Source of the DNA: Gelidibacter algens
GTDB taxonomy: Bacteria > Bacteroidota > Bacteroidia > Flavobacteriales > Flavobacteriaceae
Assembly: GCF_001678675.1 (NCBI RefSeq)
Contig: NZ_LZRN01000004.1
Location: forward strand, 62,001-126,000
DNA: 64,000 nt
Direction of reading: 5' to 3'
The notes beneath the pieces are model-generated. The model did no database searches. It worked only from the letters and a program-made list of their open reading frames with translations, and had not been told where the DNA came from. The position numbers were made by a program, and so were the translations under genes. Numbering within the stretch: the first letter of the stretch is position 1; each line of letters begins with the position of its first letter. This document shows, piece by piece, positions 19,185 through 59,640 of the stretch.

Positions 19185-19739
19185 ATGATATCAAATAAAA
19201 ATTTAGAAGTGGTGACCGTTGGCGGCGGCTGTTTTTGGTGCGTTGAAGCGGTTTTTAATGAAGTTAAAGGTGTAGAAAAAGTGGTGTCCGGTTACATGGG
19301 CGGAACTGTTCCTGGAACGCCTACCTACCGTGAGGTCTGTTCGGGTTTGACAGGACATGCTGAAGTGGTTCAGGTCACTTTTGATCCGTCAGTAATATCT
19401 CTTGAAGATGTATTGGTCGTTTTTATGACGAGCCATGATCCAACGACGTTGAACAGACAAGGAGGTGACGTTGGGACGCAATACCGCTCTGTCATTTATT
19501 ATAACAATGATAAACAAAAGGCTTTTGCACACTTGGTGGCCAAGGAAATCGCGCCTTTTTATGAAAACCCAATCGTGACAGAGATCAGTCCAGTGGAAAC
19601 GTTTCATAAAGCAGAAGATGATCATCAAAAATATTATGCCAATAACCAAACTGCTCCCTATTGCAGCGCTGTCATTACCCCTAAGTTGGCTAAGCTGCGA
19701 AAAATGCATGCAGACAAGTTGAAAAATGTGACTGTTTAA
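19185..19739 (+). CDS. msrA: Peptide-methionine (S)-S-oxide reductase MsrA
   Basis: The 184-residue cytoplasmic enzyme has the catalytic motif GGGCFWCVEAVF, with the resolving region YREVCSGLTGHAEVV and the substrate motif GTQYRSVIYY. It reduces the S epimer of methionine sulfoxide, complementing MsrB encoded just upstream. A second, differently built MsrA lies at 21709 and a damaged relative at 22618, so this region holds three msrA-type genes. Confidence 0.95.
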   Translation: MISNKNLEVVTVGGGCFWCVEAVFNEVKGVEKVVSGYMGGTVPGTPTYREVCSGLTGHAEVVQVTFDPSVISLEDVLVVFMTSHDPTTLNRQGGDVGTQYRSVIYYNNDKQKAFAHLVAKEIAPFYENPIVTEISPVETFHKAEDDHQKYYANNQTAPYCSAVITPKLAKLRKMHADKLKNVTV

Positions 19740-19755
19740 TTGAATCAATAAACCT

Positions 19756-20025
19756 ATGAAAGTTATACACGATAAAGACAACCATCAATTTACCATGGAG
19801 GTGGATGGTGAAATTGCTAAAGTGGACTACACGCTAAAAGACGGAAAAATGCATTTGGTGTATAGTGAAGTGCCATTCAATATCCGCGGACAAGGGATTG
19901 GTAAAGTATTGGTAGAAAAAACCTTTGAGAAATTGACCGAAGAAGGCTACCACGCTGTTGCGGTTTGTGGTTATATCAAATCTGTAGCCAAAAGAAGCGA
20001 CAAATGGAATGCTATTATAGGATAA
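19756..20025 (+). CDS. Small GNAT-like N-acetyltransferase (YjdJ/NATD1 type)
   Basis: This 89-residue protein has the acetyl-CoA-binding core VPFNIRGQGIGKVLVEKTFE, with the RGQGIG loop, preceded by KDGKMHLVYSEV and followed by VAVCGYIKS. The family consists of single-domain minimal GNAT proteins of about 90-100 residues; the natural substrate is not known. It starts 16 bases after msrA and 18 bases before selO, so it belongs to the same operon. Confidence 0.8.
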   Translation: MKVIHDKDNHQFTMEVDGEIAKVDYTLKDGKMHLVYSEVPFNIRGQGIGKVLVEKTFEKLTEEGYHAVAVCGYIKSVAKRSDKWNAIIG

Positions 20026-20043
20026 ATGCCGAAGACAAAATAA

Positions 20044-21606
20044 ATGAAGCTTAACATAAAAAACAAATTTACCACCCACTTACCCGCAGATGCAAATCTA
20101 GAAAATAGCAGAAGGCAGGTCACGGAAGCGTGTTTTTCTTACGTAACACCAAAACAAACATCCCATCCAGAATTGCTGCATGTATCACCAGAAATGCGCG
20201 ACAATTTGGGCCTCACGGAAGACGATGTAACATCTGAAGAATTTTTAAAAGTGGTTACTGGCAATAAGGTATTAGAAAACACAACCCCTTATGCCATGTG
20301 CTATGCAGGCCATCAATTTGGGAATTGGGCAGGACAGTTGGGAGACGGCCGTGCCATTAATTTATTTGAGGTAGAACATAACAAGAAGAACTGGGTGGTG
20401 CAGTTGAAAGGCGCTGGAGAAACGCCCTATTCGCGCACTGCAGACGGGTTGGCAGTTTTGCGCTCTTCCATTCGGGAATATTTATGTAGTGAAGCCATGC
20501 ACCATTTGGGTGTGCCCACAACAAGGGCATTGTCATTAGCTTTAACTGGTGATAAGGTTTTGCGGGACGTAATGTACAACGGCAATCCAGACTACGAAAA
20601 AGGAGCCATCGTGAGCAGAGTGTCACCAAGCTTCTTGAGATTTGGAAGTTATGAAGTTTTTGCAGCACGGCAAGATCATAAAAATTTAAAAACCGTAGTA
20701 GATTTTACCATACAGGAGCATTTTCCACATTTGGGAGCCCCTTCTAAAGCTACCTATATTCAGTTTTTTGATGAGGTTTGCACCCGTACTTTGGAGATGA
20801 TCATTCATTGGCAACGTGTCGGATTTGTACATGGGGTGATGAATACTGATAATATGTCCATTTTGGGGTTGACCATTGATTATGGCCCTTATGGTTGGTT
20901 GGAAGGTTTTGATTTTGGCTGGACACCCAACACTACAGATAGCCAGCACAAACGCTATCGATACGGAAATCAGCCCAATATGGGACTTTGGAATTTGTAC
21001 CAACTCGCCAATGCGCTTTATCCGTTAATTGAAGACGCAAAAGCCATGGAAGCCGTATTGGAAAAATACACGACCGATTTTGAGTTGCAATCCCTAAAGA
21101 TGATGCGTTCCAAATTAGGCTTACAACTTGAGAATGCTTCAGATATATCGCTGGTAAAAGATCTAGAAGATGTATTGCAACTGACGGAAACCGATATGAC
21201 TATTTTCTTTCGGAATTTGAGCAATTTTAAAAATGATAGTTCTTCCGACGGCCTAAGCATCGTTCAAGAAGCTTTTTATAATCCAACGGACCTTTCTGAC
21301 AAAATCAGGCAGCAGTGGCATGGGTGGTTTGAACGCTACGCGGAAAGATTGCTCGCGGAATCCATCTTACACTCGGAAAGAAAGTCTGTAATGGACACTG
21401 TAAACCCCAAATACGTGCTGAGAAATTATATGGCACAGTTGGCCATTGATAAAGCTGACCATGGTGATTACACCCTGATTGATGAACTTTTTCAACTCTT
21501 GAAACACCCTTATGCTGAGCAACCAGAACATCAACAATGGTTTACAAAACGACCGGAATGGGCACGCCATAAAGTGGGCTGTTCCATGTTGTCCTGCAGT
21601 TCATAA
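20044..21606 (+). CDS. selO: SelO/YdiU-family protein AMPylase
   Basis: The 520-residue pseudokinase-fold enzyme shows GHQFGNWAGQLGDGRA, the nucleotide-site segment LKGAGETPYSR and the catalytic region FVHGVMNTDNMSILGLTIDYGPYGWLEGFD. It ends CSMLSCSS, where the Cys three from the end stands in the place of the selenocysteine of animal SelO. The family transfers AMP to proteins and is linked to redox control. Its position between methionine sulfoxide reductase genes fits an oxidative-stress role. Length and motifs are complete. Confidence 0.92.
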   Translation: MKLNIKNKFTTHLPADANLENSRRQVTEACFSYVTPKQTSHPELLHVSPEMRDNLGLTEDDVTSEEFLKVVTGNKVLENTTPYAMCYAGHQFGNWAGQLGDGRAINLFEVEHNKKNWVVQLKGAGETPYSRTADGLAVLRSSIREYLCSEAMHHLGVPTTRALSLALTGDKVLRDVMYNGNPDYEKGAIVSRVSPSFLRFGSYEVFAARQDHKNLKTVVDFTIQEHFPHLGAPSKATYIQFFDEVCTRTLEMIIHWQRVGFVHGVMNTDNMSILGLTIDYGPYGWLEGFDFGWTPNTTDSQHKRYRYGNQPNMGLWNLYQLANALYPLIEDAKAMEAVLEKYTTDFELQSLKMMRSKLGLQLENASDISLVKDLEDVLQLTETDMTIFFRNLSNFKNDSSSDGLSIVQEAFYNPTDLSDKIRQQWHGWFERYAERLLAESILHSERKSVMDTVNPKYVLRNYMAQLAIDKADHGDYTLIDELFQLLKHPYAEQPEHQQWFTKRPEWARHKVGCSMLSCSS

Positions 21607-21708
21607 AAGGACATAGTATCAATAAGCAAAGCCTTAAGCATCTTAAAATGACAGAGATTAAGGCATTAGATTTTATAAACAATTTTAAATTAATTTAAAC
21701 ACAAACGT

Positions 21709-22203
21709 ATGAGCACTAATAAAAAAGCATATATAGCAGGCGGCTGTTTCTGGGGGATGGAAGATCTTTTCAGGGTACGTCCCGGTATCAAAGACACCGA
21801 GGTAGGATATATTGGCGGAGAAAATGAACATCCAACCTATAGAAGCCATCCTGGACATGCGGAAGGTATTGAAATCACCTATGATCCGACAGAAACCTCA
21901 TTCAAACATATTTTGGATTATTTTTTTAGAATCCACAATCCTACAACCGTTGATAGACAAGGCAATGATGTTGGATCAAGCTACCGCTCAGCCATATTCT
22001 TTCAGAATGACGAAGAAAAAACGGAGGCGGAAGACATCATCAAAATTGTCAATGCTTCCCATAAGTGGGATGGTCAAGTTGCCACCACTTTAGAACCTTA
22101 TTCCAAGTTTTGGGCAGCTGAGCCGGAGCACCAGGATTATTTGATAAAAAAGCCAAACGGGTACACCTGCCATTTTGAAAGATTTGATCAATCTTTTATT
22201 TGA
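21709..22203 (+). CDS. MsrA paralogue of the single-cysteine type
   Basis: The 164-residue protein keeps the MsrA active site as [12 protein letters not shown], in which the second Cys of GCFWC is Gly, and has the shortened segment [16 protein letters not shown] without the VCSG resolving Cys. [10 protein letters not shown] is conserved. It should reduce methionine S-sulfoxide but must be recycled differently from the upstream MsrA (inference). It is preceded by a 102-base gap and could have its own promoter. Confidence 0.88.
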
Positions 22204-22250
22204 TTTTTTAGGCTCAAGATGATTTTTATTTGAGCTTGGGAACTTTTTCC

Positions 22251-22292
22251 TTTGCGACCGTAGCGTGAAATCTTTGCGACCCTGGCGGTAAA
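22251..22292. repeat. TTGCGACC/GCGGTAAA intergenic repeat, copy 2
   Basis: This copy matches 6182-6221: a TTTGCGACC block, a variable middle and a final TTTGCGACCCTGGCGGTAAA. It lies between the msrA paralogue and the DUF427 gene in the same orientation as copy 1. Confidence 0.6.
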
Positions 22293-22329
22293 TGAAAATA
22301 TATATTTAATTTTTAAAAAAAAAACACTC

Positions 22330-22611
22330 ATGAAAGCAATTTGGAACAACACAGTTATCGCAGAAAGTGACCAAACGGTCGTTATAGAAAATAACCATTA
22401 TTTTCCGCATGACAGTATCAAAAAAGAATACTTTAACCCAAGTGAAACACACAGCTCCTGTCCGTGGAAAGGCAAAGCATCTTATTATACAATTGATGTC
22501 GAAGGGAAGCAAAATAAGGACGCCGCTTGGTATTATCCTGATGCTTCAGATCAGGCAAAAAGCATTAAAAATTATGTCGCTTTTTGGAAAGGGGTAGATG
22601 TCAAACAATAA
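22330..22611 (+). CDS. DUF427 family protein
   Basis: The 93-residue cytoplasmic protein matches the small DUF427 family, with AIWNNTVIAESDQTVVIENNHYFP, the central HSSCPWKGKASYYTIDVEG and the C-terminal AWYYPDASDQAKSIKNYVAFW. The biochemical role is unknown. It starts downstream of the repeat at 22251-22292 and is followed 6 bases later by the damaged MsrA-like gene, so both sit in the redox cluster. Confidence 0.85.
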   Translation: MKAIWNNTVIAESDQTVVIENNHYFPHDSIKKEYFNPSETHSSCPWKGKASYYTIDVEGKQNKDAAWYYPDASDQAKSIKNYVAFWKGVDVKQ

Positions 22612-22617
22612 CTTGTT

Positions 22618-23157
22618 GTGACAAAAGAGTTGTCTAAAATAGCTTTCGGAGGAGGTTGTTCCCGTTCCGAGGCTTCGGAATCGGGAGTGCACAGAAGCTG
22701 TTTTTCAATCCTTAAAGCTGTTGAGAAAGTAGAACAGGGATATGTGGCTTCTACAAATGAAAATAGTGATTTTTCTGAAGCGGTTATCGTTCATTTTAAT
22801 CGCAAATGCATCACGCTCCAAACCTTAGTTGAAATACATTTGTTGACGCACAATAGCAAGTCCAATCATTCCATGCGTAAAAAATACCGTTCCGCTATTT
22901 ATACCTTCAATGAGGTTCAATTTGAGACTCTTGAGGGTTTACTCAGAGAATTTCAAAAGAAATTCAATGGAGAACTGATCACGCAAATATTGCCTTTTAA
23001 GGATTTTGAACCGTCGAGGGCGCAAATTACCAACTACTATTTTAAAAATCCTGAAAAACCTTTTTGCGAGACCTTTATCAATCCAAAACTGAAATTACTT
23101 TTAAATCAATTTTCAGGATTTGTTAACCAAAATAAAGTGGGCCATTTAAAAAATTAA
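22618..23157 (+). pseudogene. MsrA-like gene with a palindrome inserted in its catalytic motif; frame restored but active site lost
   Basis: The frame from GTG 22618 is open for 179 codons and shows MsrA-like sequence (KIAFGGGC at 7-14, then KAVEKVEQGYVAS and KKYRSAIYTFNE). Cys14 is followed by 28 bases of palindromic DNA instead of codons for Phe-Trp. The family sequence CTEAVFQSLK is still readable at 22688-22717, but in another frame. The original frame resumes after it, which implies a compensating loss of one base, probably in the A-run at 22714-22716. The product has SRSEASESGVHRSCFSI where FWCTEAVFQS should be, so reductase activity is unlikely. The TYREVCSG/GHAE segment is also absent, as in a shorter subfamily. 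Confidence 0.75.
22660..22686. repeat. Palindromic element inserted in a coding sequence
   Basis: TCCCGTTCCGA (22660-22670), GGC, and TTCGGAATCGGGA (22674-22686) form a hairpin with one bulged base. Its outer arms TCCCG/CGGGA resemble the inner hairpin at 11566-11581, so it may be a member of a dispersed family. Confidence 0.75.
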
Positions 23158-23169
23158 ACTTAATTTATT

Positions 23170-24390
23170 ATGCAAAGTACAAAGCTCAACATCCAGAATG
23201 CTAAAGGGTATCAGTTGCAAGCGTATTTAGAGCTTCCAGCAAATCAAAAGCCTAATAACTATGCTATTTTTGCCCATTGTTTCACCTGTAACAGTACGTT
23301 AAAACCTGTCAAAAATATCAGTAGGGCATTGACCTCACATGGGTTTGCTGTGGTGCGGTTTGATTTTACAGGCTTGGGTAAAAGTGAAGGCGAATTTGCG
23401 GACAGTTATTTTTCAGCCAATGTTGAAGATCTATTGGCAGTTAGTGACTATTTGAAAGAACATTATGAGGCACCTTCCCTTCTTGTTGGTCATTCTTTAG
23501 GGGGCGCGGCTGTTATTGTTGCAGCGTCAAAGCTTGATAGTGTCAAGGCCATCGCCACTATTGGCGCGCCCGCAACGACAGCGCATGTGAAACAGCATTT
23601 TTCCCATCATGTTCAGGAAATTGCCCAAAAAGGAGATGTAGAGGTTAATATTGGAGGTAGGCCTTTTAAGATCAATCAAGAGTTTGTGGATGATTTTGAT
23701 AAAACAGACTTACCTGAAGTAACCAAACAACTGCGTAAACCTATTTTAATCATGCATGCCCCTTTTGACAAGGTTGTGGGGATAGACAATGCTCATAAAC
23801 TTTATAAAAGTGCGCACCATCCCAAGAGTTTTATCAGTTTAAATGATGCCGATCATTTATTGCTCAATGAAAAAGACAGCAGTTATGTTGGCAATATGAT
23901 AGGCGCTTGGGTACAAGGCTATTTTGATACCAGTAACCATGATATTTTAGACACTGAAGGCGAGCAGTTGGTGGGTCATTTAAACTTATTGGAAGACAAT
24001 TTTACGACATCCATACAAACCAAAAAACACAGTTTTGTTGCAGATGAACCAGAATCTTTTGGAGGTGATGATTTTGGACCTTCGCCTTATGATTACTTGA
24101 GTGCAGCCTTAGCCTCCTGCACTGCAATGACCTTAAAGCTTTACGCAGAACGGAAAAAATGGGATTTGCAAGAAGTGTTTGTGTACATCACATATTCTAA
24201 AAAACACAGTGAAGATTTGATGCGCGATTTGGATAAACCAACACGCTTTGACCATCTGTTAAAAAAGCTCAAATTGGTTGGGAATTTAGATGAATCCCAA
24301 AAAAACAAATTAAAAGAAATCGCCTCAAAATGTCCAGTCCATAAAACATTGCTCAGTGATATTGTTATAGAGACAGAAATCATTTCATAA
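23170..24390 (+). CDS. Alpha/beta hydrolase fused to OsmC-like peroxidase domain
   Basis: The 406-residue protein has two domains. Residues 1-~255 are an alpha/beta hydrolase with [14 protein letters not shown] and the nucleophile elbow GHSLGG (Ser109), with ADHLLL holding the probable catalytic His. Residues ~265-406 are an OsmC domain with [18 protein letters not shown] (Cys317) and SKCPVHKTL (Cys388), the two redox cysteines of organic hydroperoxide reductases. The fusion is known in many Bacteroidetes. It probably cleaves an ester and detoxifies an organic hydroperoxide, and it fits the oxidative-damage cluster upstream. Confidence 0.9.
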
Positions 24391-46152: not shown

Positions 46153-46274
46153 TGAATACTTTGTAAAGAACTAAATATTTACCTATTGTGATGAAATGAT
46201 TGAAGCAGCAAGATAAGTTGTTTTCAGAATGCAATCTTAATAGTAGACTTTAAATCTTGAAGATTGACGGCTTT

Positions 46275-46420
46275 GCGTTAGGGATTAGAGCGGCATCCTT
46301 TTACATCAACAGCTGCCCAATAAGGCAGCTGTTGATGTAAAAGATATAGCGGAAAGCCCGACCTTGAGCCTGCCATATTTTGTTGTTATGACCTTGTAGG
46401 TTTGGCGAAAGGAAACGCCC
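46275..46420 (-). repeat. Dispersed element with conserved flanks and a variable 19-base hairpin, copy A
   Basis: Read on the minus strand it runs GGGCGTTTCCTTTCGCC ... GGTCGGGCTTTCCGCTATATC, hairpin, GGATGCCGCTCTAATCCCTAACGC-like end (within the 20-base limit, given in parts). On the plus strand the hairpin arms are 46299-46317 and 46324-46342, a perfect 19-base stem with loop CAATAA. The flanks match copy B at 59303-59452 in the opposite orientation. It lies between two glycosyltransferase genes. Confidence 0.75.
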
Positions 46421-59302: not shown

Positions 59303-59452
59303 GGGCGTTACCTTTCGCCGAGATAATAATTTCAATTAAATTTAAGATTGGTCTTGGCGAAAGGTCGCGCTATCCACTATATCTTTTCGGAAGAATATCT
59401 GCCTTTAGGGCAGAAATTCTTCCGAAAAGGATGCCGTTCCTATCGCTAACGC
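59303..59452 (+). repeat. Dispersed element with conserved flanks and a variable hairpin, copy B
   Basis: It begins GGGCGTTACCTTTCGCC and ends GCCGTTCCTATCGCTAACGC. ACCTTTCGCC (59310-59319) and GGCGAAAGGT (59356-59365) form one inverted pair. The main hairpin has arms 59383-59403 and 59409-59429 (21 bases, one mismatch, loop TTTAG). Flanks match copy A reversed, but the stem sequence is different except CTTTT/AAAAG at the base and CTGCC/GGCAG at the tip. Confidence 0.8.
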
Positions 59453-59640
59453 AAATTTTACGCTAAACTTGATTTTTACGATTTTATTATAATTTGCCAG
59501 ATTGAACAATCAAAAATTAAATCCAAAAAGTTGATTTGACTGATTTAAAAACAATTTACAGTCAATTAATTAGCTTAAAATAGCTTCCAACACTAATTTG
59601 AAATTAAAAATTCTAGAATGCTAATATTTAGTACAAACCT

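Follow-up and report, generated by a model that had tools for sequence, protein, structure and literature searches.

How does a short hairpin come to lie within the catalytic motif of a gene whose long reading frame is open, and what becomes of the encoded enzyme? Both questions are raised by an MsrA-like gene of Gelidibacter algens, located at positions 22618-23157 of the forward strand of the window, that is, the whole 64,000-nt stretch of DNA that was analysed. This GTG-started ORF runs through 179 codons with no interruption, and its product, altered in the catalytic region, matches the Pfam family PMSR (PF01625) with 55.8 bits from residue 29 onwards. An alpha/beta hydrolase-OsmC fusion gene (23170-24390, forward strand) begins 12 nt past its stop codon, and the neighbourhood further comprises an MsrA gene, a DUF427 gene, and SelO, a neighbour that we take to be SelO-like. 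These five genes occur together in 7 of the 17 named relative loci and in 5 of the 8 genus loci, and the hydrolase-OsmC gene lies 3′ of the MsrA-like gene in 22 of these 25 loci, a set that counts some places twice and includes some loci with a truncated flank. The window stretch 19185-24390 holds three PMSR-domain genes in about 4 kb, with the SelO-like, DUF427, and hydrolase-OsmC fusion genes between and after them. The one intact orthologue that was scored (L002) fell under NCBI's MsrA cut-off (74.3 vs. 108.1 bits), so native MsrA-type activity of this subfamily is itself putative and unproven.

The palindrome and its absence from relatives

The hairpin is an imperfect palindrome of 27 nt (22660-22686; TCCCGTTCCGAGGCTTCGGAATCGGGA) placed directly 3′ of the TGT codon of Cys14 (22657-22659, forward strand), which is kept and abuts the 5′ side of the insert, at the site where relatives have CATTG or CACTG. 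It is built of 5 bp, a 1-nt bulge, 6 bp, and a 4-nt loop, which amounts to a stem of 11 bp. Folding of a 51-nt stretch as single-stranded DNA yielded a z-score of −3.4, with none of 200 dinucleotide shuffles equally stable, and folding of the 27-mer as RNA gave −15.6 kcal/mol, a stability equalled by one of 2000 mononucleotide shuffles. Stem length alone is not extreme in the window, which contains seven hairpins of at least 11 bp with at most one irregularity, two of them with 20 bp; among the other long hairpins, at least two fall within ORFs of at least 100 codons. What makes the palindrome stand out is its G+C content. Hairpins with a stem of at least 10 bp and at least 50% G+C number six in a 464-kb sample of the genome (the window together with 20 segments of 20 kb each), and two of these lie within a closed ORF of at least 100 codons, namely the palindrome (11 bp) and another one (10 bp).

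We compared the locus with the genomes of eight other species of the genus, the nearest relatives, which share 69-75% DNA identity with it over the matched stretch. All eight lack the insert, encode GGGCHWC, and continue after the Cys codon with CATTGG or CACTGG (His-Trp), and in their DNA alignment the window sequence is alone in having 22 extra columns, followed shortly downstream by a 1-nt gap. The palindrome together with base 22687 makes up 28 nt that substitute for six. Replacement of six bases by 28 had been proposed in the initial annotation, and this arithmetic stands, but the lost pair is His-Trp rather than the Phe-Trp named there, because this subfamily reads GGGCHWCTEAVF. No target-site duplication was detected at the insert in the genus alignment; instead, five or six bases were replaced. 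That the palindrome coincides with the alignment gap is the strongest evidence for the original observation, which is confirmed, its sequence and coordinates included.

A search with the window protein matched 36 of 45 loci, some of these loci being one place found twice, and revealed an insert-free GGGCHWC in 34 of the 36, a GGCFWC paralogue (L059), and one decayed copy (L051). The closest named proteins, with 62-65% identity, are those of Gelidibacter gilvus, G. japonicus, and G. maritimus, and Algibacter, Bizionia, and others come next. The decayed copy (genome G014) is a plain pseudogene of the same MsrA-like gene, with several stops and frameshifts and with GGGCHWC intact in another frame. 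Where relatives have the 11 residues HWCTEAVFQSL, the window protein has 18 (SRSEASESGVHRSCFSIL), of which F29 and L32 align as matches. Residues H15, W16, C17, T18, E19, and A20, invariant across 27 aligned relatives, are lost. The catalytic motif GC(F/H)W at the helix start is thus absent from the window protein, in which GGGC is kept and HWC is gone; the motif, first described as destroyed, has lost its HWC part but retains the Cys14 codon.

Reading frame, fold, and constraint

The codons that formerly specified CTEAVFQSLK are still present at 22688-22717 (forward strand), as originally noticed, but outside the GTG frame, and the gene's own frame over 22687-22716 gives VHRSCFSILK. The old frame returns at a stretch (22710-22718, forward strand) that has one base fewer than in all eight genus relatives. 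As MAFFT sets the gap just before CTTAAAG, the missing base is placed only within about 22710-22718, a range that takes in the A-run at 22714-22716 first suggested. The alignment and the 179-codon ORF also bear out the proposed balance: +22 at the palindrome and −1 downstream add up to +21, and the long frame is open. Stops occur in the other two frames at 22722 and 22730, shortly after the return of the old frame, and by frame arithmetic these are the stops that the larger or the smaller change alone would meet. Roughly a third of all possible second indels would restore the frame by chance. Therefore, the open frame alone is no proof of selection, and selection for keeping it is possible.

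The lesion might be an error of assembly or sequencing at the hairpin. The assembly is a draft of 140 contigs, and the normal constraint seen elsewhere in the gene (below) is what would be expected if the lesion were very recent or absent. An error, however, would need to have generated a near-perfect palindrome of 27 nt that is new and to have preserved the frame as well, and the second lesion adjoins three A only, with no long homopolymer. We regard this explanation as improbable; the lesion is real in the assembly and looks like a one-off mutation of a known sort.

Constraint on the remainder of the gene was evaluated over 145 codons, from residue 33 onward. Mean dN between the window and eight sequences of other genera was 0.324, within the range of the genus (0.321-0.346), and dN/dS ranged from 0.097 to 0.218 in pairs with the window and from 0.086 to 0.249 in the remaining genus pairs for which it was finite, one pair being saturated. 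Of 44 columns invariant in 16 other sequences, 42 are kept in the window protein; the corresponding figures for the rest of the genus are 42 of 42 to 45. These values indicate that the gene outside the lesion is under ordinary purifying constraint, and the copy is free of the decay seen in L051. Most pairs are near saturation in dS, so the lesion is undatable.

AlphaFold modelled the window protein (with 27 relatives) at a mean pLDDT of 87.3 and the intact G. gilvus orthologue at 89.2. In the former, the mean pLDDT drops to 61 over residues 11-20, and residue 21 is the first of the helix; in the latter the helix begins at residue 15, right behind Cys14. Foldseek retrieved 39 PDB matches of the window protein at E-values up to 0.001, of which 38 are titled methionine sulfoxide reductase, MsrA, or Mxr1; the exception, 7c13, bears the title cGrx1 and is elsewhere named MsrA. 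The window protein is therefore placed with MsrA by both its PMSR domain (Pfam) and its fold (Foldseek), from which it differs in lacking HWC, the intact orthologue L002 being itself below the NCBI cut-off. The models predict that the MsrA fold is kept, with a low-confidence loop at the expected start of the catalytic helix. Trp and the helix start play roles in MsrA catalysis. Since this loop replaces the helix start, the model makes loss of reductase activity likely.

An RPE-like insertion (in the manner of the Rickettsia palindromic elements discussed below) with function retained would picture SRSEASESG as a tolerated loop, with activity perhaps altered via Cys14 or the new Cys28. Such an outcome is consistent with the kept frame, the fold kept in the AlphaFold model, the retention of Cys14 and Glu54, and the ordinary constraint. 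The insert, however, lies inside the catalytic motif, the invariant H15-A20 block of the 27 relatives is lost, and about ten residues past the insert are frame-shifted, all of which render retained function unlikely.

Source of the hairpin

Our favoured reading, held tentatively, is that of a private lesion of one strain, in which a TCCCG/CGGGA-class hairpin was inserted in place of a few bases and another small change brought back the frame. The 27-nt hairpin would have displaced five or six bases past the catalytic Cys codon, entering by illegitimate insertion with no target-site duplication, and the loss of one base some 25-30 nt further downstream, whether as part of that complex event or afterwards, would have restored the frame. 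The protein would then be made and keep the MsrA fold, but with Trp gone and the catalytic helix no longer capped by Cys14, it would have scarcely any reductase activity or none. The open frame may have been favoured for expression of the hydrolase-OsmC gene 12 nt downstream, since an early stop could lower it.

Evidence for such a class comes from the genome itself. The pattern TCCCG-N3-7-CGGGA occurs at 36 places, five of which form one tandem array, against 4 for a control pattern, and TCCCG/CGGGA with a spacer of 8-24 nt occurs at 28 places, including two clusters, on contigs 2 and 10, that account for seven, against 10. The palindrome's own spacing (TCCCG-N15-24-CGGGA) was not enriched in this genome (9 vs. 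7), and the inner hairpin TTCCGA-N2-8-TCGGAA was found at three places, including the feature, against one for the control. In the 464-kb sample with the feature masked, TCCCG scored 5 vs. 0; when the 714 arm words are ranked by ratio it shares places 4-8, and by absolute excess it is 78th.

No copy of the 27-mer emerged from these searches. With up to three mismatches, its single place in the genome is the feature itself; a degenerate form with a spacer of 3 was found in 1 of 299 family genomes, the own one; and viral contigs gave no match. Hence no donor is known. A looser pattern matched in 4 of 149 family genomes, the own one included, at places between genes in G173 and G165 and within a 212-codon ORF in G025 (L087). 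The arms resemble a local hairpin class, and no copy turned up among the sequences searched; the insert is therefore a copy of no member found.

Fifteen of the 36 short-spaced places were read, and 12 of these lie outside ORFs of at least 90 codons and three inside, the latter read in the own genome alone. Four of the 15 head a longer palindrome whose outer arms are ACCTGTCAG-like; it is a repeat of this genome, and its outer arms are missing from the window palindrome. Four intergenic places (L112, L113, L114, and L115, near position 1500) carry a compound palindrome, about 50 nt long, with ACCTGTCAG-like arms enclosing TCCCGA-N4-TCGGGA. Beyond the feature and a place on contig 35, 11 of the 28 longer-spaced places were read; two (L100 and L101) are in ORFs of at least 100 codons, and L026 lies on the border of a long frame. 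L100 was rejected as an intragenic insertion: another genus member (L105) has nearly identical bases, which makes it ordinary coding sequence. The 15 and 11 places read, few of them aligned with relatives, yielded no demonstrated second case of such an insertion; the suggested check for such palindromes inside genes thus returned some in-ORF places but no further case. In other genus members the repeat TCCCGCGATCCCGATAGCTATCGGGA lies, at the places read, between genes or just 5′ of gene starts. Similar hairpins at L084 and L090 are intergenic, and the class members L084 and L032 resemble plain terminators. Two family genomes carry TCCCGTTCCGAT..ATCGGAA hairpins between genes, one of them followed by a T-run, terminator-like. 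Regularly spaced hairpins were also observed, with five TCCCGAA(C/T)TGTCGGGA hairpins in a tandem array at an exact spacing of 60 nt (G000:C19:30857-31112) and five TCCCGCATTTGGGCGGGA-type hairpins spaced by about 84 nt (G000:C2:152253-152607).

The close rival, which ranks second and which we judge less likely, is that a replication error built the palindrome on site, its likeness to the TCCCG class being due to chance. Template switch, fold-back synthesis, or filler-adding end joining would be the routes, and the replaced bases, together with one neighbouring base, would have been lost along the way, perhaps all within one complex event. The single copy of the 27-mer, the replacement rather than duplication of target bases, and two lesions inside about 30 nt all fit this explanation, as does the residue at the second lesion, which is Ala where aligned relatives have Gly. 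Against it, hairpins of the class that the arms resemble are enriched in this genome, and no local template was found, the longest word shared with the flanks being 6 nt (50 and 100 nt of flank) or 8 nt (300 nt). Local templating was rejected on the grounds that random window places equal these values in 95 of 297, 167 of 296, and 29 of 293 cases, respectively. Template-switch (quasipalindrome) mutations are described as local replication errors that make or perfect short hairpins; the window insert is likewise a short hairpin, but one for which no local template was found. The claim of a mobile palindrome is partly supported by the enrichment of the class (36 vs. 4); in the sense of a dispersed element it is unsupported, given the single copy and the lack of target-site duplication.

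Relation to known palindromic elements

Rickettsia palindromic elements (RPE) are small palindromes within an ORF whose long frame is open (PMC3733652). The same paper gives a size of 20-40 bp for REP/RPE-type small palindromes, which includes the 27 nt of the window palindrome, and GTAG or CGTC tags at the foot of REP hairpins; here, the flanks are GGTTGT and GTGCAC, with neither tag at the hairpin foot. The insert resembles RPEs and intragenic REPs in being absent from orthologues and in leaving the long ORF open. It differs in that RPEs form dispersed families whereas the window palindrome is single-copy and replaces target bases, and in that its frame is kept only together with a second 1-nt change. 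With no donor, no target duplication, and no tag, its status as a mobile element is unproven.

A likeness to REP/BIME sequences with RAYT transposases is that the palindrome is a bulged GC-rich hairpin and that palindromic repeats surround each of two Y1_Tnp genes in the genome. These RAYT-like genes lie on contig 35 (G000; L062 and L063), the first with several copies of palindromes nearby, e.g., GTCCCGTTAGGGAC and GTGCCTTTAGGTAC, and the second with the GGAATGAATTCC type. The GTCCCGTTAGGGAC, GTGCCTTTAGGTAC, and GGAATGAATTCC repeats are, however, other sequences, and the 27-mer is unrepeated, on which grounds a RAYT link was rejected. A further palindrome near the first gene, TCCCGTAATCCGGATAGCTGTCGGGA, has the outer arms alone in common with that of the window.

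An RPE-like event outside Rickettsia, in which a flavobacterial TCCCG/CGGGA hairpin entered the catalytic motif and the compensating loss was fixed because an open frame was selected for, leaving a stable pseudo-enzyme, is in our view doubtful. What was selected would then be either that translation continues as far as the next gene downstream or that the protein serves some non-catalytic role. Narrow literature searches, confined to open papers, gave no match for intragenic small palindromic insertions in Flavobacteriaceae or for compensatory-frameshift pseudogenes in bacterial genomes. In the favoured reading of a private insertion-replacement, the locus offers a clean example of a short hairpin entering a coding region and removing a catalytic motif with the frame left open, in a gene that Pfam still places in the methionine sulfoxide reductase family. 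If selection kept the frame, the need would be for translation through the gene rather than for enzyme activity.

Elsewhere in the window, two Flavo-1 RNAs (Rfam RF01705) were identified at 46270-46367 on the forward strand and at 59359-59457 on the reverse strand, with 51.1 and 55.7 bits, respectively. Their flanks are conserved, and the 20-bp hairpins between CTTTT and AAAAG differ.
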